In this document: one piece after another, positions 48,247 through 63,538 of the stretch | How the letters are laid out: each line of letters opens with the position of its first letter | How positions within the stretch are numbered: position 1 is the first letter of the stretch | Assembly (NCBI GenBank): GCA_019240115.1 | Contig: JAFAYV010000009.1 | Location: forward strand, 62,001-126,000 | DNA: 64,000 nucleotides | Direction: 5' to 3' | Origin: Solirubrobacterales bacterium | GTDB taxonomy: Bacteria > Actinomycetota > Thermoleophilia > Solirubrobacterales > Solirubrobacteraceae | Made by a program: the position numbers and the translations under genes | The notes under the pieces: model-generated | The model's database searches: none | Seen by the model: only the letters and a program-made list of their open reading frames with translations | What the model was told of the DNA's origin: nothing

Positions 48247-49554
48247 CTAGACCAGGCTAGGGAGGCTGGTCGCGAGCGCGCCGGCGGCCATGACGGCGAC
48301 GATGATCACGCTGATCGTCGCGACCACGCGGAAGATGGGGCCGTTTGCGGCGGGGCCGAGGACGCTGGGGCGGTTGGCGAGCGCGAGGATGAACGCGAGC
48401 AGGATTGGGGTGATGATCCCGTTGAGGATCTGGGCGTTGACCAGGAGCGAGATGAGGTTGCCGGGGACGAGTGCGAGGCCGGCGCCGATGATGATCTCGA
48501 TCGTGAACAGGCCAAGGAATAGGCGGGCTTCGCTGAAGCGCCGCGAGACGCTGGACTCGGTGCCGATCGCCTCGCCGACGGCGTAGGCGGTCGAGAGGGG
48601 GACCACGGCGGCGGCGAGGGCGCTGGCGCCGATCAGACCGATCGCGAAGAGCTCGGAGGCGAAGCGGCCGGCGACGGGTTTGAGTGCGTGCGCGGCTTGG
48701 GCGGCGGAGTTCAGCGGCGCGCGGTGGTGGATCGCGGCCGCAGTGGCGATGATGATGAAGATGCTGACGATGTCGGCGAAGATCGCGCCGCTGACGGTGT
48801 CCAGCCGGGTGGCTGGGTACTCGCTGGGGCCGGCGCCCTTGTCGGCGACGGCGGCGGCGACGTAGAACTGCATGTAGGGGGTGATAGTCGTGCCGATCAG
48901 AGCGACCGCCAGCAGCAGGAAACTCTTGTTGGCCAGCAGGTGGGGCAGGATCAGGTTGCTGGTGGCGGTGCCCCAGTCGGGGTGGGCGAGGATCGCGGCG
49001 ATCGGGTAGGTGATGAACACCAGGCTGAGCAGCAGGAAGATCCGTTCGGCGTAGCGGTAGCTGCCGAGCGTGACCAGCGCCCAGATCGCGAGCGCGGCGA
49101 CCGGGACGCTGAGGTAGCGGCTGACATGCAGGAGCTGCATCGCGGCGGCGATCCCGGCGAACTCGCTGACGACCAGCCCGGTGTTCGCGATCACGAGCAG
49201 CACGAGCGCGAACGCGGCGATCCGCAGGCTGAATTGCTCGCGGATGAGCGCGCCGAGGCCTTGGCCGGTGTAGGCGCCCAGGCGGGCGCACATCTCCTGC
49301 ACGACCACGAGCCCGACGGTGACCAGGAGCATCACGAACAGGGTGCGGTAGCCGAACTGCGCGCCGGCGGAGGCGTAGGTGACGATCCCGCCGGCGTCGT
49401 TGCCGGCGTTGGCCGCGATCAGCCCCGGTCCGAGGATCGCCAGCACCAGGATCAGCCTTCGCCGCAGCGCCGGCCGTCCCGGTGGCACCCGCTCGCCTTG
49501 AGTCGGGTCGCCGGTGGTCGGCGGCGACGTGGTCGTGGGCTCGGGGGCGCTCAT
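48247..49554 (-). CDS. NRAMP-related divalent metal transporter
   Basis: Membrane transporter (435 aa, about 11 helices). In helix 1 the usual DPGN is NDAGG (ANAGNDAGGIVTYASAG), and helix 6, normally with a metal-binding Met in 'MPHN', reads GTTITPYMQFYVAAA. These changes match the NRAMP-related Mg2+ transporter (NRMT) type rather than classical Mn/Fe NRAMP. Last gene of a three-gene operon with an MgtE_N/CBS protein and a second transporter. Magnesium as substrate is inferred. Confidence 0.83.
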   Translation of the reverse strand: MSAPEPTTTSPPTTGDPTQGERVPPGRPALRRRLILVLAILGPGLIAANAGNDAGGIVTYASAGAQFGYRTLFVMLLVTVGLVVVQEMCARLGAYTGQGLGALIREQFSLRIAAFALVLLVIANTGLVVSEFAGIAAAMQLLHVSRYLSVPVAALAIWALVTLGSYRYAERIFLLLSLVFITYPIAAILAHPDWGTATSNLILPHLLANKSFLLLAVALIGTTITPYMQFYVAAAVADKGAGPSEYPATRLDTVSGAIFADIVSIFIIIATAAAIHHRAPLNSAAQAAHALKPVAGRFASELFAIGLIGASALAAAVVPLSTAYAVGEAIGTESSVSRRFSEARLFLGLFTIEIIIGAGLALVPGNLISLLVNAQILNGIITPILLAFILALANRPSVLGPAANGPIFRVVATISVIIVAVMAAGALATSLPSLV

Positions 49555-50939
49555 GCGGGCGCGTGGCGGAACAGCTGAAAGCGGGTCTTGTCAGAGACCA
49601 GCGCGTCGACGATGTCATCGGCCAGGATCCGCCCCAGCGGCCGTCCGTCCTCGTCGACGACCAGGATCGAGGCCGAGCGGTTCGCGATCAGGGCAACCGC
49701 GACCTCGCTGACCGGGGTGTCGGGGCTGACGGTCACCGGCCACGGCGGCCCGATCAGCTCTGAGAGCCGCCGGTCGCGGTCGGCGAGCAGCAGCTCGAGG
49801 ACCGTGACGTCGTCCAGCAGCCGTCCCTGCGGGTCGACCACGACGATCGCGGACAGGTCAACGGCATGAGCGGCCAGGTCGCGCAACCGTTCGGTGACCT
49901 GCGCGACGGTGTCGTGTTCGGCGCACTGCACCAGCGTGCTCGTCATCACGCCGCCGGCGCGGTCCTCGTCATAGCCCAGCAGCCGCGCGAGCCGAGCCGA
50001 GACGTCCGTGGGCATCGCGTCGAGCAGTCGGGCGCGCTCGGCGGCGGTCATGTCGCGTAGCGCGTCGACGGCCTCGTCGGGCTCCATCTGGGCCAGCAGC
50101 TCCGCAGCGGTCTCGGGGGGCGCGTCACGGAGCAGGCGGTGGACATCGTCGTCGTGCATCTCCTCGACCGCGTCGGCGGCGGCCTCGGGATCGAGCGTGT
50201 CGAGCAGGTGCTGGCGCTCTGAGCGGCCGAGCTCTTCGAGCAGGTCGGCGAGCTCCCCGGGCCGCAACGCTGACAGCGCGCGCCCGGAGGTCCGCAGCCG
50301 AACCCCGCCGATGCGGTCGGCGTCGGCGAGCGGCTGGATCGCGGCCCAGTCGATCACCCGCTCCGGGGTGGGACGGACCCGCAGCCGCGCCGGCCCCAAC
50401 CGTCGCAGCAGACTGGTCGTGCTGACGTCCACGCCGACGAGGCGAAGCTCGCCGCGCAGCTGGGCGAGCACGAGGTCGGCGGCGCGGATCACACGGCGGC
50501 CATCCACATCGATCAGCTGGTGGTCCAGGACGCTCGCGGCCAGCTGCATCTCTCCGTCCCGCGGTTCGAACTCGCGTAGATCGACTCGCGCGCTGGCGAG
50601 CCGCACTTCGCCGTGCGCGACGTGCGCGATCTGGGAGGCGGGCACCCAGCTGCGACGGCGACCGACCCGGATGATCAGTCCGGTCGCCGGCGGGTAGGGC
50701 TCAAGCTCGGTGTCCGGGGAGAAGTTCACCACGACGTCGACCACGCGGCCGACCTCATCGCCGGCCTGGTTGCTCACCGGTCGGCCGATCAGCCCGGCGA
50801 GGCTGACCAGCGCCTCGCGGACCGACCGCAGCGCCAACGCCCGTCCTGAGCGCAGCCCGCGATCGCGCAGCGACCGCAGCCGCCCCCACCGCGGGTGCGC
50901 GTAGGTCCGCTCGGTCATCGGCGCTGACGCGTCACCCAC
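49551..50939 (-). CDS. Soluble PRC-barrel, MgtE_N and CBS domain protein
   Basis: A 462-residue cytoplasmic protein. A PRC-barrel-like part (about 45-200, with GLIGRPVSNQAGDEVGRVVDVVV split as GLIGRPVSNQAGDEVG, RVVDVVV) precedes an MgtE N domain of helical repeats (about 235-335: ALRPGELADLLEEL, LLDTLDPEAAADAV, LLAQMEPDEAVDAL, LLDAMPTDVSARL), then a CBS pair (about 345-455). It has the complete cytosolic Mg2+-sensing part of the MgtE channel but no channel domain. GTG 50939 lies 3 bp after the upstream transporter; ATG 50918 is an alternative. Likely a metal-responsive gate or regulator for the flanking transporters. Confidence 0.85.
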   Translation of the reverse strand: MGDASAPMTERTYAHPRWGRLRSLRDRGLRSGRALALRSVREALVSLAGLIGRPVSNQAGDEVGRVVDVVVNFSPDTELEPYPPATGLIIRVGRRRSWVPASQIAHVAHGEVRLASARVDLREFEPRDGEMQLAASVLDHQLIDVDGRRVIRAADLVLAQLRGELRLVGVDVSTTSLLRRLGPARLRVRPTPERVIDWAAIQPLADADRIGGVRLRTSGRALSALRPGELADLLEELGRSERQHLLDTLDPEAAADAVEEMHDDDVHRLLRDAPPETAAELLAQMEPDEAVDALRDMTAAERARLLDAMPTDVSARLARLLGYDEDRAGGVMTSTLVQCAEHDTVAQVTERLRDLAAHAVDLSAIVVVDPQGRLLDDVTVLELLLADRDRRLSELIGPPWPVTVSPDTPVSEVAVALIANRSASILVVDEDGRPLGRILADDIVDALVSDKTRFQLFRHAPA

Positions 50940-50942
50940 AGC

Positions 50943-52634
50943 TCACCCCACGCTGATCGAGACGAGCTTGACGAGAACCAGCGCCACCGCGAGCGCGAGA
51001 TACCCGCGAAGCGTCAGCAACCCGACCTTCCGCCGGACCGACAGCATCGGTGGCGCGAGCGCTGCCAACGGTGGCATTCGCCACTGCGCGCGCTCCTCTG
51101 AGGCCACCCGCGGCCGGGATGGGAGCTCAAGGCGCCCGCCGCGGGGCACGCTGAGCATCCGCTCCGCCAGCGCCTCGCGGCGGAACAACCACCCGCGCAG
51201 CAGCAAATAGACACCGATCACGACTCCGATCACCAGCCCGCCGGCCAGGACCGCCACGATCGCCGCGAACCGGATGTGCGGGAACAGGATGCTGGCGGTC
51301 AACAGGACCGACAGCATCACCAGGCTCCACACGACGATGCTCGTGAACACGTTGCGCCACCGGCCGTTGACCCACGGGCCGAGCACGTCACGGTCGTTGC
51401 ACAGCAGCAACAGGAACACGGTCGCGCTGGGCAGCAGCACCCCCGCCAGGCTTTGCACCCCCTCGGTCAGCGTCCCCAACGGCACCCCCGGGATGAGCAC
51501 CAAGACGACCGCGAGCACCATGAGCGCTCCGTAGCACCCGTAGAACGCCTTGGCCTGTCCGACGGAGCGGTGCAGCGAGTGGTTGACCCCCAGCACGTCG
51601 CTCGTCGCATATGCGCTCGCCAGGCCGACCGCGGCCGCACCGATGATGCTCGCGTCCAACAACCCGATCGCGAACAGCGTCCCGGCCAATGGCGCGCCGG
51701 CGTGTGCCAGTCCTGCGCTGACGCCGGCGGCGTCGGTGAAATGTCCGAACCCTGGGCGGCCGGTGAACGCGGCCGCGGAGAAGCCGATCATCGCGGCGGC
51801 GCCGGCGATCACGAGCACGATCCCGATCCACAGATCGGCTTTCTCATATCGGATGAACCGGGGGGTGATCCGCTTGTCGATCACATAGGACTCCTGAAAG
51901 AACAGCTGCCACGGCGCGATCGTCGTGCCCACGATCGCGATCACCAACAACAACGCCGCCGAAGCGTTCGCGCCCGCCGGGAAGCCAGGCACCAGCACGC
52001 CGTGCACCATCGCCGCGGCGGGCGGGTGCACGAGTGCGTAGACCGCGATCAGCACCAACGAACCGGCCACCAACCCCAGGCACAACCGCTCAAATCGGCG
52101 CAGGCTGCCGGTGCTCGCCGCGCCAACCACAATCACGGCGCCGAGCACGACCGTCGGTCCCTTCGGCAGATCCAGCGCACGGCCCGCGAGCGTGATCCCG
52201 ATGAACTCGGTGATCACCGTCAGCGCGTTGAGCACGAACAGATCAATCACGCTAAACGCGCCCCAGAAACGACCGAACCGCTCCAGGATCAGCCGAGCGT
52301 GACCCACCCCGGTCACCGCGCCTAGGCGCACGACCATCTCCTGGTTGACGTAGAGCACCGGGACCAGCAGCACCAGCGTCCACAACAGCCGCGTCCCGTA
52401 GTTCTGACCCGCCTGCGTATAGGTCCCAAACGCGCCCGCGTCGTTATCGCCGACCATCACGATCAACCCCGGACCCAGGATCGCCAACAACGTCGCTGCC
52501 CACGGCGACGGCCTGCGGCGCACCGCCGAGCGTTCCCCCAGCCGGATCGTGCCCAGCGCGCCGTGAATGTCACCGATATGCGCGTCGTCTGACACCGCGC
52601 GATCTCCCGACCGGGCCAGGGGTGCCGCGTTCAT
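50943..52634 (-). CDS. NRAMP-related divalent metal transporter with C-terminal extension
   Basis: A 563-residue transporter of the same family as the one at the end of the operon. Helix 1 carries GDNDAGAFGTY in place of DPGN and helix 6 carries GTTIAPWQLFFQE. It has a longer soluble N-terminus (about 45 residues) and about 90 extra residues at the C-terminus with one more membrane helix. ATG 52632-52634 follows GGAGG. First structural gene after the leader peptide and hairpin. Confidence 0.83.
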   Translation of the reverse strand: MNAAPLARSGDRAVSDDAHIGDIHGALGTIRLGERSAVRRRPSPWAATLLAILGPGLIVMVGDNDAGAFGTYTQAGQNYGTRLLWTLVLLVPVLYVNQEMVVRLGAVTGVGHARLILERFGRFWGAFSVIDLFVLNALTVITEFIGITLAGRALDLPKGPTVVLGAVIVVGAASTGSLRRFERLCLGLVAGSLVLIAVYALVHPPAAAMVHGVLVPGFPAGANASAALLLVIAIVGTTIAPWQLFFQESYVIDKRITPRFIRYEKADLWIGIVLVIAGAAAMIGFSAAAFTGRPGFGHFTDAAGVSAGLAHAGAPLAGTLFAIGLLDASIIGAAAVGLASAYATSDVLGVNHSLHRSVGQAKAFYGCYGALMVLAVVLVLIPGVPLGTLTEGVQSLAGVLLPSATVFLLLLCNDRDVLGPWVNGRWRNVFTSIVVWSLVMLSVLLTASILFPHIRFAAIVAVLAGGLVIGVVIGVYLLLRGWLFRREALAERMLSVPRGGRLELPSRPRVASEERAQWRMPPLAALAPPMLSVRRKVGLLTLRGYLALAVALVLVKLVSISVG

Positions 52635-52651
52635 GACGACCTCCAAGCACA

Positions 52652-52668
52652 GCCCGACTCGGGCTGCG
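52652..52668. promoter_or_regulatory. 17-bp palindrome before the first NRAMP-like gene
   Basis: CAGCCCGACTCGGGCTG is a perfect 8-bp inverted repeat around one base, only 18 bp upstream of the ATG and just before the GGAGG. In RNA it could form a hairpin adjacent to the ribosome site after opening the innermost pairs. It is the second such element in this leader region. Confidence 0.5.
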
Positions 52669-52719
52669 AGCAGGAAGAGCGCACGCCCGACCCGCTGGTC
52701 CTGTGGCCGAGCCGGCGGG

Positions 52720-52851
52720 TCAGGCGCGGCCCGCCGAGCAGGATCGGGGGCACGGACACGGCCCGCCGTCCAGCTCAGACACAGCGTCCTCGGCGCGGCC
52801 CGGCGGGCCGGAGGCTCGGTCACGCACGACCGAAGCGACAACAATTCTCAT
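52720..52851 (-). CDS. Candidate leader peptide of the metal-transport operon
   Basis: A 43-codon frame starting at ATG 52849-52851 with GAAGGAG 7 bp upstream and ending 85 bp before the first transporter gene. It begins MRIVVASVVRDRASG and has an acidic centre and a PCPCPRSC stretch. Acid- and proline-rich leader peptides regulate mgtA-type genes by translation stalling in other bacteria; a similar role here is speculation. It could also be a non-functional frame. Confidence 0.4.
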   Translation of the reverse strand: MRIVVASVVRDRASGPPGRAEDAVSELDGGPCPCPRSCSAGRA

Positions 52852-54501: not shown

Positions 54502-55845
54502 TCAGTCGGCCCGGCTGCGCTCGCAGCCCTGCAGTGCGCGACGAGCGCCGCCCGACGGGGAGCGTGACGCGGCGATCCGCGAGCCCGCGCCCTTGCCGCC
54601 GGCTGCGCTGAGCACGGCATCGGCGAGCCTCCCCAGGCCGGTCTCGAGGTCGTCGTCGGTGATCGTCAAGGGCGGCAGCAGCTTGACGACCCCATCGTCG
54701 GGCCCGCACGTCTCCACCAGCAGCCGCATCTCGAACGCGGCACGGCTGACCGCGTGGGCGATCTCGGGGCGCTCGAACGCCAGCCCATGGGCCAGCCCGC
54801 GTCCCCGGCTGGCGATTCCGGTGCCGTCGACGGCGCCGCGCAGCGCAGCGAGCATCTCGGCGACATGCTGGCCACGCTCGAGCGTGCTGCGCTGCAGTCG
54901 GTCGTCGGCCCAGTAGTGGCGCAGCGCGGCGGTGCCGGCGACGAGCCCGAGGGTGACGCCGCGGAACGTGCCGGTGTGTTCGCCCGGCTCCCACACGTCG
55001 AGCTCGTCGCGAATGAGGGTGAGCGCGACGGGCAGGCCGTAGCCGCCGATCGACTTGGAGAGGCACACGATGTCAGGCCGGATCCCGGCCTCCTCGAAGC
55101 TGAAGAACGCGCCCGTGCGGCCGCAGCCCATCTGCACGTCGTCGAGGATGAGCGGCACGTCGTGATCGCGGCAACGCACCGCCAGCCCGCGCAGCCAGTC
55201 AGTGCGCGCGACGTTGATGCCTCCGTCACCTTGGACCGCCTCGACGATCACGGCGGCGGGCGGCTCGCCGGTGCCGAGCTCGCCGGCGAGCGCCCGGTCG
55301 AGCTCGGCGAACTCCGCTGCCAGATCGGGAGTGCCCTGGTCAAACGCCAGGCAGTGCGCAAGGGTGACCCGCCCGGCGCAGGCGGCCCGGCGCTGCGGGT
55401 TGCCGGACACCGACATGCTGCCGAGCGTCATCCCGTGAAAGCCGTCGCGGAAGCACACGTAGTCGTTTCGGCCGGTCGCCTTGTGCGCGAGCCGGAGCGC
55501 CGCCTCGACGGCGTTGGCGCCGCCCGGTCCGGGGAACTGGACGCGGTAGCGCAGATCGCGCGGGCGCAGGACGAGCTCGTCGAAGGCGGCCAGGAACTCA
55601 CGCTTGGCGACCGTGAACATGTCCAGCGACTGGATCACCCGATCGTCGGCGAGGTAGCGCAGCACCGGCTCCTTGAGCGCGGGGTTGTTATGGCCATAGT
55701 TGAGCGCGCCCGCGCCGGCGAAGAAGTCCAGGTAGGACCGCCCGTCCTCGTCGTGCAGCCAGCTTCCGCGCGCGCGATCGAACACGACGGGCCAGGCCCG
55801 GCAGTAGTAGCGAACCTCGGACTCGAGGGTCTCGAAGATCTTCAT
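54502..55845 (-). CDS. ectB: Diaminobutyrate-2-oxoglutarate aminotransferase (EctB type)
   Basis: PLP enzyme (447 aa) converting aspartate semialdehyde to L-2,4-diaminobutyrate with glutamate. It starts MKIFETLESEVRYYCRAWPVVFD and has FFAGAGALNYGHNNP (start split: MKIFETLESEVRYYC, RAWPVVFD), both EctB hallmarks, plus GGANAVEAALRLA, ILDDVQMGCGRTG and the PLP lysine in CLSKSIGGYGLP near residue 261. No ectA or ectC is adjacent, so it is not an ectoine operon. Its ATG overlaps the stop of the Pls-like NRPS by one base, which ties diaminobutyrate supply to that synthetase. About 20 extra residues at the C-terminus. Confidence 0.93.
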   Translation of the reverse strand: MKIFETLESEVRYYCRAWPVVFDRARGSWLHDEDGRSYLDFFAGAGALNYGHNNPALKEPVLRYLADDRVIQSLDMFTVAKREFLAAFDELVLRPRDLRYRVQFPGPGGANAVEAALRLAHKATGRNDYVCFRDGFHGMTLGSMSVSGNPQRRAACAGRVTLAHCLAFDQGTPDLAAEFAELDRALAGELGTGEPPAAVIVEAVQGDGGINVARTDWLRGLAVRCRDHDVPLILDDVQMGCGRTGAFFSFEEAGIRPDIVCLSKSIGGYGLPVALTLIRDELDVWEPGEHTGTFRGVTLGLVAGTAALRHYWADDRLQRSTLERGQHVAEMLAALRGAVDGTGIASRGRGLAHGLAFERPEIAHAVSRAAFEMRLLVETCGPDDGVVKLLPPLTITDDDLETGLGRLADAVLSAAGGKGAGSRIAASRSPSGGARRALQGCERSRAD

Positions 55846-58800
55846 CAGTCGTCTCCAGGGGGGTGGGCTGCGCATGCAGCGGTTTCGAGAGCCGGGTTTC
55901 CGGCCCAGGCGGTGGCCGCGGCGACCCGCGTGCCCTTCATCAGAAACGCGTCGGTCTCGAGCACCGCGCCGTCGCCGATGACGACGTCGTAGTGCGCGAA
56001 CGCGCCGGTCCCGAGACAGACCTCGTCGCCGACCACGATCGGTCCGGACTTGAACGCGCCGTCCTCCAGGGAGTGACTCTGGAGCGAGGTGCCGGTGTTG
56101 AGCACGCAGTCGTCGCCGATTGAAACGAGCCTGCGCTCGGTCATCGAGCAGCCGTCGTCGAACAGTCGGCGGCCGACGCGGGCGCCGAGCGTGCGCCAGG
56201 CGACGCCCTTCAGCGGGGTGCCGTCGAGGATGCGCAGATAGCCGGGCGCCGGAACCTTCCAGAACCGTTCGTGGCGCCAGAAGGCACGGTCGTAGATGGA
56301 GCAGATCGCCGGCGGCCGGTCGCGGCGAGCGATGAGCAGACGCTCGGCGGCGACGAAGACGGCGAGCGGCATCGCGACGTCGAGCAGGATGGTCGCCAGG
56401 GACGCCGGCCATGCCGCCAGCCCGGGCGCGCGGTCGTCGATCGCCGCCGACGCCAGCAGCGCGGCGATGACGACGAACCGCACGGCGGCGAACAGCGCGA
56501 TCGTGACGAGGTTGTGGCGCAGCTTGGCGGCCAGCGGCGGGCTGCCGGCGAGCGCGTTCATGTCGGCGTCGCGGCGCACGCTGCGCGGGATCTCGAAGCA
56601 CGGCGAGCCGAGCAGGCCCGTGTTCTCCCGCAGCGGACCGTCGAGCGGCACCATCACCTTCGTTCCCAGCAGGCAGTTGTCGCCGACGCGCGCCCCCGCC
56701 GGGAACACGATCGCGTTACCCAGGAAGTTGTCCGCCCCGATCGTCGCCGGCGACACGCAGAACGAGGTGCTCGAGATCTCGGCATTGGCCAGGGAGAGTC
56801 CGTCGGAGACCATCGTGCCGGAGGAGACCGTGCACAGCGCGGGGACGTCGTGCTTGACCTGCAGGCCGAAGTTCGAGCCCGTCTGGCGCACGGCGCCGAG
56901 CCGATAGCCGAGCACCCGCAGGTAGGAGACGATCAGCGAGCTGTCACCACAGAGGGTCGTCAGCAGGGGGATGTTCGAGGTGCGGACGACGATGCGCAGG
57001 ATGGCCCAGTGCGCGCCGTACAGGGGATACACGCGGCCGGGCCGCAGGCTCCGCGTCAACAGCCGGGGAACGGTTGCCGCCACGAGCGCAGCGACCAGCG
57101 GCACGGTGAGCGTGACGATCGCCGCCAACGCCAGGATCCCCGACACGGGCAGCCCGCGCAGCCAGCTCACGTGGCCGACGAGGACGGTCGCCACCACCGC
57201 CTCCAGCGGGCTGACCGCCGCGAGCGTCAGGAGCAGCCGCGCGGCGCCGTACAGGTAGCGCCGGCGCGCGCGCAAGGTCAGGGGCGGCACCCGCACGAAG
57301 TCGGCGCCTGCGGGCGCGGGACGCGCGGGCGAGCCGTGCCAGCGTTCCCCCGCGGGGACATGCTGGCCGGCGTGCAGCGCGGAGGCGTGGCCGATCTGGG
57401 CGCCGTCGCCGATCGACGTGGCGATGTCGAACATCACGTGCTCGGAGACGACGCAGTCGCGGCCCAGACTGACCGGGCCGAACTCGATCGCGCCCGCCCG
57501 GGCCCGATAACCGTTGAGCCGCCCGTCCTTGCGCACGAGGCATCCGTCGCCGATCCTGATCAAGTCGGCGGCGACCGGCATGTGCGTGGTCAGGATCGTC
57601 GTGCCGCGACCGATGCGGGCACCGAGCGCGCGCAGATATGAGCCGTACAGCGGCGTGCCGACGATCAGGCGCACCGTCGGGTTGGCGACGAGCAGCGTCT
57701 TGACGATCCAGAAGCGCACGTAGGCGACGCTCCAGAGGCGGATCGGTCGTTCGGTGAAGCGGCCGATCAGCGTCCACTTCGCAAGGATCGGCACAAGCCC
57801 GGCGACGAGCAGGGTGCCGGTCCCGACCGCGACCGCGCGCGCGTACAGCGCCAGCGCGCCGTGCGCCGCCGTCAGCCAGCCCGCGCCGAGATCGAAGGCG
57901 GCGGCCGCGGCGCCCGCGTACAGGAGGAACGCCAGTGCCTGCAGCGCAGCGCAGAGGGCGACGCGCGGCCGACCCACCGGGGCGACGAGCCGCGTGCCGG
58001 CCGGCCGACCGACGGGGCCCTCGGACGCGGTCCGCCGCGGATCGGCCAGCGCCCGCGCCAGCTCGCGGACCGTGGAGTGGGCGTACACGTCGCGCATCGA
58101 CACCGTCCGCACGTCCGGCTGGTCGTGCAGGCGCGCGCAGAACATCGCCATCGTCAGCGAGTCCCCGCCGAGATCGGCGAAGAAGTCGGCCGTGGCGCTG
58201 GGCTGATCGAGCTCCAGCGCGACCGCGAGCGCGGCGGCCAGTGCCGTCTCGAGGCCCGGACGGGGCGCGGCCTGCGCGTCGATCGGGGCGGCGGGCCGCC
58301 CCCGGGCGCGCGGCGCCGGCAGCAGCCGGCGGTCGACCTTGCCGCTCGGCATCGTCGGGATGCTGGCCAGCCGCTCGAGCTGGGCGGGGACCATGTACGG
58401 CGGCAGGTGGGTGCGCAGGTGGTCGAGGATCGCCGTCTCGTCGATGTCGCCCTCGATGTCGCCTTCGCCGCTCCGCGCCGACGTGTAGTAGCCGACGAGC
58501 TCGATGGCGCCGGGTGCGCGCTCCCAGGTGCGCACGACGGCCTGGCCGATCGACGGCATGCAACGCAGCAGCACCTCGATCTCGCCGAGCTCGATCCGGT
58601 AGCCGCGCAGCTTGATCTGCTCGTCGATGCGTCCGCGATGCTCGAGTTGACCGTCGGCGTTGACGGCGCCGAGGTCGCCGGTGCGGTAGAGGCGCCCCGA
58701 CGGGTTGTCCGGCAGCGCGAGGAAGTCGGGCACGAACGACCGCGCGGTGCGCTCGGGCAGGCCGAGGTACCCGTCGGCGAGGCCGATTCCGGCGATCGCG

Positions 58801-59933
58801 ATCTCTCCCTCCTCGTGCAGCGGGAGCGCCCGGTCGGCGTCTGGATCGAGGATCACGATGGAGTACGTCGGCAGCGGCACGCCGATCGTGACCGGACGGC
58901 CGGGCTCGAGCGTCGACCACGTCGCGCTGACGGTCGTCTCGGTCGGACCGTAGACGTTGAGCATCCGTCGCCCGGGTCGTTGCCAGCGTGCCGCCAGGTC
59001 CGGCGGGCACGCCTCGCCCGAGACGAGCAGGAAGCGCAGCTCGGGGAGGTCGGCGTCCAGCGTGGCCAGCAGCGTCGGGACGCAGACGAGCGCCGTCACG
59101 TGCCGGTCCAACAGGAAGGCGTGCAGATCAGAGCCGAGCAGCGCCGCGCCGGCGGGCCTGGGCACGAGCGTGGCGCCGGCCATCCACGCGATCCAGATCT
59201 CCTCGATCGCGAAGTCGAACGCGATCGTGAGCCCCTGATAGACGCGGTCGTCCGCGCGCATCCCGTACGCGCCGGCGGCGACGCGCACGAAGTTGCAGAT
59301 ACTCGAATGCGCGATCGCGACGCCCTTCGGACGACCGGTCGTCCCCGACGTGTAGATCACGTAGGCGAGCTCGTCGGCGACCCGCAGGCCCGTCGGCCGC
59401 TCGCAGGACTCGGCCGCGATCGCGTCCGCTGCCACGTCGAGACAGACGACCCCGGCGTTGTTGCGGCGGCGCAGGCCGGGCGCCAGCCGCGAGATCGTCA
59501 GCACGGTTTCGGCGCCGGCGTCACCGACGATGAACGCGAGGCGCTCGGGCGGAAACGCGACGTCCAGCGGCACGTATGCGGCATGCAGCTTGAGCACGGC
59601 GAGCATCGCGACGTAGCCGTCGACCGGCGTGTCGAACAGGAGCCCGACGCGATCGCCGGGGGTGACGCGGCCGGTCCGCGCGAGGTGGTGGGCGAGGCGG
59701 TTGGCGCGGTGGTCGAGCTCGACGTAGGTGAGCGTCGCGTCGGGTCCGTCGACGGCCAGCCGGTCGCCCTCGCCATCGCGCGCGAGCGCGTCGCAGCGGG
59801 CCTCGAACAGGTGGTGTAGCCGCTCGCCTTCGGTCCAGCGCACGCTCGCGTCGCCGGAGGCCGTCAGCACGAGGCCGTCCGCGCTGATGCGGCCGACGGG
59901 CCGGCCGGGAGCGATCAGCGATGCGCCGGACAT
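55845..59933 (-). CDS. Poly-lysine-synthetase-like NRPS (adenylation, carrier, membrane/hexapeptide region)
   Basis: A 1362-residue synthetase with the layout of streptomycete epsilon-poly-lysine synthetase (about 1320 aa). Adenylation domain (about 30-545): YVIYTSGTTGRPKG, AFDFAIEEIW, NVYGPTETT, YRTGDLG, MPSGKVDRR. Carrier domain (about 555-640) with LGGDSL, Ser592. Then membrane helices (about 657-740, 885-975, 1145-1225) alternating with three soluble left-handed-beta-helix-like segments (about 755-870, 1050-1140, 1255-1350). Pocket read by eye is D-F-E-V-L-S-V-V-S-K, not one I can assign; the Glu could meet an amine side chain. Coupled to ectB, so diaminobutyrate is the favoured monomer. 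Confidence 0.9.
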   Translation of the reverse strand: MSGASLIAPGRPVGRISADGLVLTASGDASVRWTEGERLHHLFEARCDALARDGEGDRLAVDGPDATLTYVELDHRANRLAHHLARTGRVTPGDRVGLLFDTPVDGYVAMLAVLKLHAAYVPLDVAFPPERLAFIVGDAGAETVLTISRLAPGLRRRNNAGVVCLDVAADAIAAESCERPTGLRVADELAYVIYTSGTTGRPKGVAIAHSSICNFVRVAAGAYGMRADDRVYQGLTIAFDFAIEEIWIAWMAGATLVPRPAGAALLGSDLHAFLLDRHVTALVCVPTLLATLDADLPELRFLLVSGEACPPDLAARWQRPGRRMLNVYGPTETTVSATWSTLEPGRPVTIGVPLPTYSIVILDPDADRALPLHEEGEIAIAGIGLADGYLGLPERTARSFVPDFLALPDNPSGRLYRTGDLGAVNADGQLEHRGRIDEQIKLRGYRIELGEIEVLLRCMPSIGQAVVRTWERAPGAIELVGYYTSARSGEGDIEGDIDETAILDHLRTHLPPYMVPAQLERLASIPTMPSGKVDRRLLPAPRARGRPAAPIDAQAAPRPGLETALAAALAVALELDQPSATADFFADLGGDSLTMAMFCARLHDQPDVRTVSMRDVYAHSTVRELARALADPRRTASEGPVGRPAGTRLVAPVGRPRVALCAALQALAFLLYAGAAAAAFDLGAGWLTAAHGALALYARAVAVGTGTLLVAGLVPILAKWTLIGRFTERPIRLWSVAYVRFWIVKTLLVANPTVRLIVGTPLYGSYLRALGARIGRGTTILTTHMPVAADLIRIGDGCLVRKDGRLNGYRARAGAIEFGPVSLGRDCVVSEHVMFDIATSIGDGAQIGHASALHAGQHVPAGERWHGSPARPAPAGADFVRVPPLTLRARRRYLYGAARLLLTLAAVSPLEAVVATVLVGHVSWLRGLPVSGILALAAIVTLTVPLVAALVAATVPRLLTRSLRPGRVYPLYGAHWAILRIVVRTSNIPLLTTLCGDSSLIVSYLRVLGYRLGAVRQTGSNFGLQVKHDVPALCTVSSGTMVSDGLSLANAEISSTSFCVSPATIGADNFLGNAIVFPAGARVGDNCLLGTKVMVPLDGPLRENTGLLGSPCFEIPRSVRRDADMNALAGSPPLAAKLRHNLVTIALFAAVRFVVIAALLASAAIDDRAPGLAAWPASLATILLDVAMPLAVFVAAERLLIARRDRPPAICSIYDRAFWRHERFWKVPAPGYLRILDGTPLKGVAWRTLGARVGRRLFDDGCSMTERRLVSIGDDCVLNTGTSLQSHSLEDGAFKSGPIVVGDEVCLGTGAFAHYDVVIGDGAVLETDAFLMKGTRVAAATAWAGNPALETAACAAHPPGDD

Positions 59934-60145
59934 CAGGCGGGCTGTTCGGACACGGGCGCCGCGCCGGCGGCGTAGCGGCGCGCCGCCGCCTCAGAGACGA
60001 CGGCCGGCGCCATCGCGATCAACTGCACGTGGCCGAGCCCGGGCAGCGGTCTGACATCGGCCACGACGCTAGAGAGCTGGCCCCGTGCCTCGGGGCGGAG
60101 GTCGACATGTCCCAGATTGTCGGAAGGATTGGCGCCACCGCCCAT
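59933..60145 (-). CDS. 70-residue protein translationally coupled to the Pls-like synthetase
   Basis: Starts at ATG 60143-60145 with TAGGAG about 9 bases upstream and ends in TGATG, sharing one base with the synthetase start. It begins MGGGANPSDNLGHVDLRPEA and contains VQLIAMAPAVVSEAAARRYA (Ala-rich, helical). It is not MbtH-like (no W-P-x-W residues) and has no signal peptide. Function unknown; a helper of the synthetase or merely a coupling cistron. Confidence 0.6.
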   Translation of the reverse strand: MGGGANPSDNLGHVDLRPEARGQLSSVVADVRPLPGLGHVQLIAMAPAVVSEAAARRYAAGAAPVSEQPA

Positions 60146-60177
60146 CGGTCGAGGCTCCTATCTCGCGGGGTGACGCC

Positions 60178-60197
60178 GCTCAGCCGATCGGCTGAGC
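60178..60197. promoter_or_regulatory. 20-bp perfect palindrome upstream of the Pls-like operon
   Basis: GCTCAGCCGATCGGCTGAGC is an uninterrupted perfect palindrome 32 bp upstream of the 70-residue gene. It is the only strong symmetric element in the 200-bp gap 60146-60345. It fits a dimeric repressor site; in RNA it would make a short hairpin. The gap also separates this operon from the iron-related genes on the same strand, so it probably holds the operon promoter. Confidence 0.6.
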
Positions 60198-60345: not shown

Positions 60346-61623
60346 CTAGGCCGGCGGTGCAGCGGCCAGCAGCGGGAAGGAGCGCGCGGCCCGGGCCGGA
60401 ACAATGTAGTTGCCTCGTCGCAGGACGAAGATGAACTCGTTGATGCCGTTGTTCACCGTGTCGGTGATGGCGGGGTTCTGCAGCTGCGCCGAGCTGGCGT
60501 TCATCGCCGTGCGGGTGGTCACGAAGTCCGCGATGGTCCGTTGCAGGGCGACGAAATGCAACCCCGCCTGGCCGCCGTCGATGGTGTTGAAGTCGCGGCG
60601 CAGGATGAGTGGCTTGCCGTGCCGACGCGCGCGGGCGGAGGTCTGGGAGTGGCCGAGGACCCCGTAGCGGTTGATCGCCTGTCCGGTCAGCTGGGGGTCG
60701 CTCTCCGCGTCGGTACGGATCTCCCGCACCTGTTGCGGGGTCACCTGAGGCGCATACATGCGCGCCACCCGCTCCTGATAGTTGAGGTCCTGATACCAGC
60801 TGTCCAGTCGCAGCCGCATGTAGCTGATGTGCATCGTCGTGCCCTGCGCGAAGGGGCCCGCAGGGATCGTCACGGCGTCCTCGGTCGCCTGGTTGCGCTT
60901 CAGGTTGGACTTGAAGCCCATGAACAGCGGCGAGGTGGGCGGGACCGGGCGACCGCTGGGGATCCCGCCGACGTCCTGATGGCGGGCGGGCAGCCCGGCG
61001 CCGGTGAATCCGGTGCGGGTCTCGCGCCAGGTCAGCGCAGAGGAAAGGTCGAGGATTCCGTCGGCGCCGTCGAGCTCGGCGCCGTGGATGAGGGCGTTCT
61101 CGATCTCCAGCAGGCGTCGTTCGTCGTCGCTGGCCAGATGCAGAACCAGGTCGTGATCGTCGATCGTCGGCAGCTCGAAGTCCGACAGCGCGGTGGCCAC
61201 CGGAACCGGTGACGGCGTGCGCGGGAGCCGCTCGAAGTACGACGGACCCCAGCCGACGGTGAACAGCAGGCCGCGCGGCCCCCAGGCGAAGCGCCGCTCC
61301 AGGGTACGAAGCGCCGCCTCCAACACGGTTGCGTGGCCCGTGTCCGGCGTGCCCCTGACGTCGAAGAACACCAGCCGGTCATAGCGCGGCGCCACCGGAT
61401 TGCCCTCGGCGTCGGGCGCGAGCGTCTGCTGCCAGGCGTGCTGGCGGGCCGGCAGCGCTCGGGGCTGTGCCCCGAGCGCCACCGGCGCCAGCGATCTGTC
61501 GGTCGAGCCGCCGCTGACCTCGACCACCGCGGCCGCGGTGCCGCCGGCGGCCAGGGCGGCACCGCCGATCAGGAACCGTCGGCGGCTCAGTGCGGTCCCG
61601 GCGGCACGTTCCGGACTGCTCAT
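60346..61623 (-). CDS. Tat-exported DyP-like peroxidase family protein
   Basis: A 425-residue protein with a clear twin-arginine signal (LSRRRFLIGGAALAAGG near residues 12-28). The body resembles the DyP/chlorite-dismutase superfamily: GPRGLLFTVGWGPSYFERL, YGVLGHSQTSARARRHG with a candidate proximal His, and LRRDFNTIDGGQAGLHFVALQ (split: LRRDFNTIDG, GQAGLHFVALQ). The canonical DyP GxxDG motif is not seen, so catalysis is uncertain. ATG 61621-61623 overlaps the lipoprotein stop. Its place beside a P19-type lipoprotein parallels EfeB in iron-uptake systems. Confidence 0.8.
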   Translation of the reverse strand: MSSPERAAGTALSRRRFLIGGAALAAGGTAAAVVEVSGGSTDRSLAPVALGAQPRALPARQHAWQQTLAPDAEGNPVAPRYDRLVFFDVRGTPDTGHATVLEAALRTLERRFAWGPRGLLFTVGWGPSYFERLPRTPSPVPVATALSDFELPTIDDHDLVLHLASDDERRLLEIENALIHGAELDGADGILDLSSALTWRETRTGFTGAGLPARHQDVGGIPSGRPVPPTSPLFMGFKSNLKRNQATEDAVTIPAGPFAQGTTMHISYMRLRLDSWYQDLNYQERVARMYAPQVTPQQVREIRTDAESDPQLTGQAINRYGVLGHSQTSARARRHGKPLILRRDFNTIDGGQAGLHFVALQRTIADFVTTRTAMNASSAQLQNPAITDTVNNGINEFIFVLRRGNYIVPARAARSFPLLAAAPPA

Positions 61624-62267
61624 GCCGTCGGCTGCCAATGGAAGCTGACGTTGACGCGGTGGGGCTTGAGCCAGACGTCCTGGTACTCGAGATGGCGCGC
61701 GGCAACCGGTGGGCTGATCAGCAGGCTCAGCGAGTATGTGCCGGCTCCGGGCAATGCGACGTTGTTGCCGTAGTGCGGTCCCATGTACTCCGAGAGCATC
61801 GGCCACTGGCGTTCGTCATAGATGACCTTGCCGCCCTTGCTGATCGTCGCCCAGACCGAGGCGTAGGGGATCGGCACGTCGCTGCGCGCGTCGTTGAGCA
61901 TCACCATGAGGTGGAAGCTGACGTGCTTGGGCGGCTTGACCATCCTCGCCTCGGTGCCGTCGAAGATCACGAACGGGACCGCGGTCATCGCGCGCGCCGA
62001 GATCTTCATGTCCTGCCAGCTGGCCGTGGCGAGCGTCTGGGTCGGGATCGGCTTGATGCCGTCGACGGACATGCCCTTGCCGCTCATCCCCGACATGCTC
62101 GAGCCCATCGAGGAGCCCGTGCTGGTGTGCATCGCGGCCATGCCGTTGGACTGAGAGCTCGACGAGCTCAGCCCGGCGGAGCTTCCGCAGGCCGCGACGG
62201 CCAGCGACATCACCCCGGCCGCCGCGATCAACCGCGCGCATCGCGCGCGGGAACTGACTCTTGTCAT
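61620..62267 (-). CDS. P19/Tp34-type iron-transport lipoprotein
   Basis: A 215-residue lipoprotein: signal ending VAACGSS (lipobox cysteine), a Ser/Met-rich linker, then an Iron_transport (P19) domain. Metal ligands are expected among PKHVSFHLMVML, WPMLSEYMGPHYGNN and EYQDVWLKPHRVNVSFHW. Family members bind Fe/Cu in the periplasm and feed FTR1-like permeases. ATG 62265-62267 has GGAG 8 bases upstream; ATG 62273 is too close to it. Confidence 0.87.
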   Translation of the reverse strand: MTRVSSRARCARLIAAAGVMSLAVAACGSSAGLSSSSSQSNGMAAMHTSTGSSMGSSMSGMSGKGMSVDGIKPIPTQTLATASWQDMKISARAMTAVPFVIFDGTEARMVKPPKHVSFHLMVMLNDARSDVPIPYASVWATISKGGKVIYDERQWPMLSEYMGPHYGNNVALPGAGTYSLSLLISPPVAARHLEYQDVWLKPHRVNVSFHWQPTA

Positions 62268-62359
62268 CCGCATTTCTCCTTTGGGTTCTGCATCACGTCG
62301 AGACGGCTGTGGGGTCCGCCGGCCGTGGCCGGCGGACCCGCCTCTGATCAACGCCGACC

Positions 62360-63361
62360 TCAACTCGGTGTGGCCGCCGGCGCAAGCGCGACTGGCTCGG
62401 GCTCGGGCTCGAAGCCGCGGACCCTCCTCGGCGCGCGCCACGCCACCAGCGGGTACATCGCGCAGGCCAGCAGCACGAACAGCGGACCGGAGTTGGGGTC
62501 GGTGGCCCCGCCGCCGAGGATCCCGCCCAGCCCCTGGGGGATCACCCAGTAGACGAGGTTGAGCGCGATGGCCAAGCCGAGGAACAACCGCGGACGCCAG
62601 TCGGCCGCGACCGCCACGCCGATCGCCGCCGACAGTCCCGCCAGCACGAGGGCGATGATCAGGCCGCTACCCCTCGAATCGCCGGCGAGGCTGCTCTGCA
62701 AGCTGTTCAGCCAGCCCATGCCGCTGTCGACCTTGGTCAGCGCGCCGCTGGTGGCGTTGGCGCTGGCGCTGGGCGCCTGCAGCCACAACCACGCCATGAC
62801 CAGCCACAGCGCCGCCCACATGGTCTTGGCGCCGCGCGCCCCGAGCAACCCTCCAGGGCGCTCGCGGGGCCAGACGACCAGACCGATCAGCGCGTACATG
62901 AGCACGCCGCCGGGGGCGCCGGTCAGCGGCTGGGCCATGTCCATGAACATCATCCCGAACGCCTCGCCGAACCACCAGACGATCAGCACCCAGGCAAACG
63001 ACGCCGCCAGGGCGGGCCTGACCAGCGGCCGATAGAGCAGGCCGAGTCCGAGCAGGACCTGGGTGGCCGCGAACAGCGTGTTGAAGACGCTCAGGTCGCC
63101 GTTGGCCAGCCGCGCGCCCCACATGACGCTGTCGTGCACCCAGCCCGGCTGCCCGGCCGCGTTGCCGGCGAGCATCCGCGCGAAGCCGTGCGAGTACATG
63201 AATGACTGAAACTGCAGGCCGCCGTCCAGCAGCCAGATGAGGCCCAGCACCGTTTGCACCCGCCGGGCATTGTCAGACCAGAAGTAGGCACGCAGCGAAG
63301 CCGGGGCGAGCGATCCGCGCGTGCGCTCGTCGGCCCAGCGGCCGACCGCATCTGCACTCAT
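62360..63361 (-). CDS. Multi-pass membrane protein of the iron-linked locus
   Basis: A 333-residue protein with about eight membrane helices; hydrophobic blocks near residues 35-55, 85-110, 115-140, 150-170, 185-205, 235-260, 262-285 and 295-315. WFGEAFGMMFMDMAQPL in the centre is rich in Met and acidic residues, which could bind metal. No family assigned; I do not see the RExxE motif of FTR1. Located 92 bp upstream of the P19 lipoprotein on the same strand. Confidence 0.7.
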   Translation of the reverse strand: MSADAVGRWADERTRGSLAPASLRAYFWSDNARRVQTVLGLIWLLDGGLQFQSFMYSHGFARMLAGNAAGQPGWVHDSVMWGARLANGDLSVFNTLFAATQVLLGLGLLYRPLVRPALAASFAWVLIVWWFGEAFGMMFMDMAQPLTGAPGGVLMYALIGLVVWPRERPGGLLGARGAKTMWAALWLVMAWLWLQAPSASANATSGALTKVDSGMGWLNSLQSSLAGDSRGSGLIIALVLAGLSAAIGVAVAADWRPRLFLGLAIALNLVYWVIPQGLGGILGGGATDPNSGPLFVLLACAMYPLVAWRAPRRVRGFEPEPEPVALAPAATPS

Positions 63362-63538
63362 ATGAATCTCCTTAAACGTCGAATCGAAGGCGATGTCCGG
63401 GGGACCGCGGCCACGTGCGACCGCCGCGTGGCTCCCGTGCTCCCCGGGCGGACGCTCACCTCTATGGGCGTCCACCCGCTGCGCGGGCGCTCTCTCGGGC
63501 ATCGAGGCGCGTGCCGACGTCCGGGGTCCTCCCGGACG

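Follow-up and report, generated by a model that had tools for sequence, protein, structure and literature searches.

A Pls/PosA-family synthetase gene coupled to an EctB-type transaminase gene and its predicted role in gamma-poly-L-2,4-diaminobutyrate synthesis

Polymers of 2,4-diaminobutyrate (Dab) are reported to have antifungal and antiviral activities, and few producers of them are known. Two gene clusters for their synthesis have been published: pldA-dat-ask of Streptomyces for gamma-poly-L-Dab (PMC8117764, legend to Fig. 1C) and pddA, with dat and ask, for gamma-poly-D-Dab (PMC8225329). A synthetase gene in the context of a transaminase gene is therefore already established from pldA and pddA. 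We analyzed a 64-kb stretch of DNA (here called the window) that contains a related locus on its minus strand, at 54502-60145, transcribed in the order 70-aa open reading frame (ORF), 1362-aa synthetase, and 447-aa EctB-type transaminase. In common with pldA-dat-ask, a Pls-type synthetase stands beside a diaminobutyrate-2-oxoglutarate transaminase; the window locus differs in having no linked aspartate kinase among the neighboring genes scanned, in a transaminase gene that lies downstream and is coupled through TGATG, in a transaminase of the EctB type and not of the distant dat type found at Streptomyces locus L047, and in a host that probably, by inference, belongs to another actinobacterial class. 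The pddABCD cluster of Streptoalloteichus hindustanus likewise combines a synthetase with a Dab transaminase (PMC8225329), but in the window neither a DapF-like racemase gene nor an aspartate kinase gene is adjacent and the transaminase is the coupled partner. Both comparisons are of published gene context.

Two further members of the family make polymers of other diamino acids. PosA, the delta-poly-L-ornithine synthetase of Acinetobacter baumannii (PMC10522769), has the same adenylation-carrier-membrane layout as the window protein, the same Asp and Glu at positions 1 and 3 of the adenylation code, and a C-terminal fold that is predicted to be alike, with hairpins and beta-helix repeats; it differs in having Met where the window protein has Phe at position 2, and posA is solitary, whereas a precursor gene lies beside the window synthetase. 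Pls, the epsilon-poly-L-lysine synthetase of Streptomyces albulus (PDB 7WEW), is alike in family and architecture but has the code DAESIGTVVK in place of DFEVLSVVSK.

The synthetase and its adenylation pocket

The initial annotation of this DNA, made from the letters alone, had likened the long protein to poly-lysine synthetase, and the profile search upheld that family for its C terminus: the match to TIGR02353 ("Pls/PosA family NRPS") scored 599.3 bits (E 9.8e-180) against a curated cut-off of 423.1 bits, and no other protein of the window genome lies above that cut-off. The architecture is A-PCP-NRPS_term_dom, with a single adenylation domain and a single carrier; AMP-binding, PP-binding, and hexapeptide-repeat families were the only Pfam matches, and neither a condensation nor a thioesterase domain was found among them. 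The alternation of membrane and hexapeptide-type segments that had been described was also seen, as six hydrophobic segments in three pairs (residues 657-686 and 693-728, 896-926 and 922-963, and 1138-1170 and 1172-1203), each pair followed by a hexapeptide-type stretch; six transmembrane segments in three pairs have been reported for both Pls and PosA (PMC10522769, PMC8117764). An AlphaFold2 model (25 relatives; pTM 0.84, mean pLDDT 80) renders the C-terminal domain as three copies of a unit in which a left-handed beta-helix follows a helix hairpin. Compared with solved structures, the modeled domain gave local matches to hexapeptide acyltransferases, with a query TM-score of at most 0.18 among the matches listed, which is consistent with the published statement that this terminal domain has no solved structure.

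The adenylation code was read by alignment as D240, F241, E244, V283, L303, S305, V327, V335, S336, and K532; as a check on the method, the solved poly-lysine synthetase was read from its alignment as DAESIGTVVK. In the study of PosA (PMC10522769), the two amines are bound by Asp at position 1 and Glu at position 3, and chain length depends on position 2 (Phe for 2,3-diaminopropionate [Dap] or Dab, Met for ornithine, and Ala for lysine); the study also notes that Dap synthetases are not easily distinguished from Dab synthetases by sequence. In the window synthetase the conserved Asp and Glu are present, and Phe at position 2 is the mark of poly-Dap and poly-Dab synthetases, in keeping with the substrate that had been proposed; the poly-lysine code, with Ala at that position, is not found in this protein. 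Two positions depart from the usual code, which weighs against the assignment: Val stands in place of Cys at position 4 and Ser in place of Thr at position 9. No paper turned up in a literature search for either exact code, DFECLSVVTK or DIWQSTADDK.

Gene arrangement and linkage to diaminobutyrate supply

Features of the locus are listed in the table. Both junctions of the three-ORF unit are TGATG, with one base in common, and the single base that the synthetase and transaminase genes had been said to share was confirmed (stop codon at 55847-55845, ATG at 55845-55843). The bounds first given for the locus, 55845-60197, do enclose the synthetase, the short ORF, and the palindrome, but they leave out the transaminase gene itself.

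Features of the locus, in window coordinates
Feature	Position	Strand	Remarks
EctB-type diaminobutyrate--2-oxoglutarate transaminase, 447 aa	54502..55845	-	NF006733; last gene of unit
Pls/PosA-family homopolymer synthetase, 1362 aa	55845..59933	-	TIGR02353; TGATG-coupled to EctB
C-terminal membrane polymerization domain (predicted)	55890..57953	-	Residues 661-1348; TIGR02353, three-repeat model
Peptidyl carrier domain	58047..58241	-	Residues 565-629, LGGDSL pantetheine site; PF00550 (PP-binding), above Pfam cut-off
Adenylation domain	58314..59771	-	Residues ~55-540; PF00501 (AMP-binding), above Pfam cut-off
70-aa ORF	59933..60145	-	5' of synthetase, one-base overlap; doubtful gene or short leader
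Perfect 20-bp palindrome	60178..60197		GCTCAGCCGATCGGCTGAGC; 32 bp upstream of 70-aa ORF

The transaminase scored 574.5 bits against NF006733, the general Dab transaminase family (cut-off, 438), and can be aligned over its full length with the solved EctB structures 9S1Q and 6RL5. It keeps the active-site lysine that is replaced in 9S1P, a residue whose role in EctB has been described (PMC6915088), and it is the only Dab-type transaminase in the window genome.

The 70-aa ORF was present as announced, with a plausible ribosome site (AGGAG at 60155-60159) 9 nt 5' of it, but its standing as the first gene of the system has been weakened. Its coding score is 0.07 per codon, whereas no 210-nt stretch of the synthetase gene scores below 0.21; profile searches matched it to no family, and no convincing homologue was found across 28 same-genus genomes, nor any homologue 5' of or beside related synthetases. 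Since the coding signal is weak and homologues are absent at other loci, we rejected it as a conserved accessory protein, and it probably lies outside the conserved system. The palindrome reported upstream of the unit is indeed perfect; the window has one other perfect palindrome of 20 bp. The notion of a palindrome regulon was rejected, as the site is single in the genome even when up to three mismatches are allowed; it may possibly serve as a local operator. A scan for sigma-70 promoters gave no match. On the same strand and 5' of the unit, at 60349-63502, lie genes for a DUF7405 protein, an Fe2+-transport-like protein, and an unassigned membrane protein, probably a separate operon, and at 48247-52844, also on the minus strand, two Nramp-like transporter genes flank a 462-aa MgtE N-domain/CBS-like gene, the profile check in this region covering the gene at 50943-52844 only.

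The association of the adenylation code with Dab supply was examined in 84,980 species genomes, with the C-terminal domains of the synthetases of the window and of the G005 genome as queries, and 80 loci were recovered. Not all of these can be regarded as encoding poly-Dab synthetases, a reading that we rejected because most lack an N-terminal adenylation domain. A Dab transaminase gene lies within about 5 kb of every one of the seven testable synthetases with the code DFE[C/V]LSVV[T/S]K, namely, those of the window, a peat metagenome-assembled genome (MAG) (L046), Streptomyces niphimycinicus (L047), an Amycolatopsis strain (L049), Pseudonocardia xinjiangensis (L062), and Arthrobacter (L108 and L118), and near none of 13 with other codes, some of which lie on contigs with little sequence to one side. 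Fisher's test, which ignores relatedness, gives 1.3e-5. The G005 locus (L026) was left out of the count, as its contig ends inside the synthetase. On a tree of their own, the linked transaminases fall into at least three lineages of separate origin, namely, a group of the window (on a long branch), L046, and L049, an Arthrobacter group, and the distant dat type of L047 and L062, and gene order differs among the linked loci. A gene for aspartate kinase, which acts earlier in the supply of the precursor, adjoins the synthetase gene in Streptomyces L047 and Arthrobacter L108, and our reading of the ORFs suggests a like layout at L118 and no such gene beside L046 or L049; the reduced two-gene form seen in the window recurs at these last two loci. 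That genes for Dab supply have gathered repeatedly around a single code argues strongly, if indirectly, for Dab as the monomer. The Arthrobacter clusters also contain a phosphopantetheinyl transferase-like gene between the transaminase and aspartate kinase genes (L108:5664-6389), and the Arthrobacter synthetase gene at L118 is followed by one for a protein that by eye resembles M28-type peptidases (L118:12371-13213) and recalls the self-protection peptidase PldII.

Proposed pathway and alternative readings

We consider it likely that the locus specifies a two-gene pathway to gamma-poly-L-2,4-diaminobutyrate. By analogy with the known families, EctB would form L-Dab by transamination from aspartate semialdehyde and glutamate, and the adenylation domain would convert Dab to its AMP ester, in a pocket made shorter by Phe241, with Asp240 on the alpha-amine and Glu244 on the side-chain amine. 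Dab would then be loaded on the carrier domain, and the membrane-embedded, three-fold C-terminal domain would link the units through the side-chain amine to give a polycationic isopeptide that would exit the cell. The L form is the most likely one, as no DapF-like racemase was detected among the neighboring proteins scanned. The central idea of the initial annotation, polymerization by a Pls-type enzyme of L-Dab supplied by EctB, is well supported by the adenylation code, by the domain profile, and by a linkage that recurs and was assembled independently, while its side claims have lost ground.

It is unlikely that the product is instead beta-poly-L-2,3-diaminopropionate or a mixed Dap/Dab chain, with EctB otherwise used or supplying part of the monomers. 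Dap and Dab synthetases have Phe at code position 2 in common and form one group (PMC10522769), and an SbnA-type Dap enzyme is encoded near the transaminase-linked locus L062; against this, no SbnA-like Dap gene occurs among the neighboring window proteins scanned, the transaminase accompanies the window-type code at seven of seven loci, and SbnA genes occur with other loci, that of L062 sitting between two different synthetase genes. A product of the D configuration, as in S. hindustanus, with the D monomer furnished by an unlinked racemase, appears slightly less probable again: the family and the transaminase partner do match pddA-pddC, but the racemase gene described for that cluster, pddB, is in translational coupling with pddA, as it is in the three homologous loci as well (PMC8225329), whereas in the window the gene coupled to the synthetase is that of EctB and nothing DapF-like lies next to it. 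That the synthetase hands Dab units on to an acceptor, a lipid or the cell wall, and makes no free polymer would accord with a C-terminal domain that is membrane bound and, in the model, locally like hexapeptide acyltransferases, yet the characterized members named in PMC10522769, PMC4668381, and PMC8117764 all make a soluble homopolymer, and we regard such a transfer as very unlikely. The weakest reading, under which EctB serves ectoine synthesis or some other use of Dab and stands beside the synthetase by accident, draws on a score of 542.7 bits against the ectoine-EctB equivalog TIGR02407, slightly below its cut-off of 552.2, and is highly improbable and largely refuted by the one-base coupling, the recurrent linkage at other loci, and the lack of any genome-wide match to ectoine synthase EctC in a genome that is 95.6% complete, when the same search was positive in four control genomes.

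The absence of ectC remarked on at the outset therefore extends to the genome as a whole, and we rejected an assignment of this EctB as an ectoine gene; in one ectC-positive control genome of the same class, ectC adjoins ectB. EctB-type genes at L137 (G006) and L139 (G335) likewise occur with no ectoine synthase match and no linked Dab-type synthetase, and they possibly reflect another use of Dab.

Related synthetases and biological significance

Within the genus of the window genome, nine loci (L027-L033, L035, and L036) encode synthetases with the exact code DAESIGTVVK and have no linked transaminase. These proteins have about 31% identity to the window synthetase, and because they match the code of 7WEW exactly and cluster with it, they are predicted to be poly-lysine synthetases. 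Across 399 genomes of the class, a close C-terminal domain was found in the window genome and G308 only. In G308, a single 1565-aa protein (L136:9564-14258) has the order carrier, membrane domain, and adenylation domain (DIWQSTADDK), and 1 kb downstream there is a gene of the SbnA type for diaminopropionate. A large and conserved split group, represented in Streptomyces, Pseudonocardia, Geodermatophilus, and others (L050-L056, L058-L061, L063-L078, L081-L096, and others), consists of Pls-like proteins in which a carrier and a membrane domain are present and an adenylation domain is missing from the N terminus; some 0.7 to 0.9 kb downstream lies the coding region of a free-standing adenylation domain, whose code is, for example, DIWQSTADDK.

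The expectation that such a locus would be unusual outside the streptomycetes was not borne out, since the Pls/PosA family is present in bacteria, archaea, and fungi (PMC10522769) and the code and transaminase together also occur in Amycolatopsis, Pseudonocardia, Arthrobacter, and the peat MAG. What is new is the host lineage, by inference one that belongs to the same phylum as the streptomycete-like genomes but to another class, together with the reduced two-gene form and the presence of two kinds of synthetase within one genus.

A minimal two-gene cassette would be convenient for expression, and the pairing of one adenylation code with Dab transaminases, which came about at least three times separately, provides a practical sequence rule for recognizing poly-Dab producers. 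It is a tentative and rather doubtful suggestion that in this one genus, probably outside the streptomycete class, polycationic isopeptides are routine and the synthetase has been exchanged between lineages, with poly-lysine made by most carriers, poly-Dab made by the window genome and G005, and the monomer enzyme recruited alongside; if that were so, it would suggest a shared, selected function of the polycation itself, for instance in surface or competition chemistry, whatever its monomer. A genus with two predicted kinds of polymer would in any event offer a comparison through which the natural role of such polymers could be approached.
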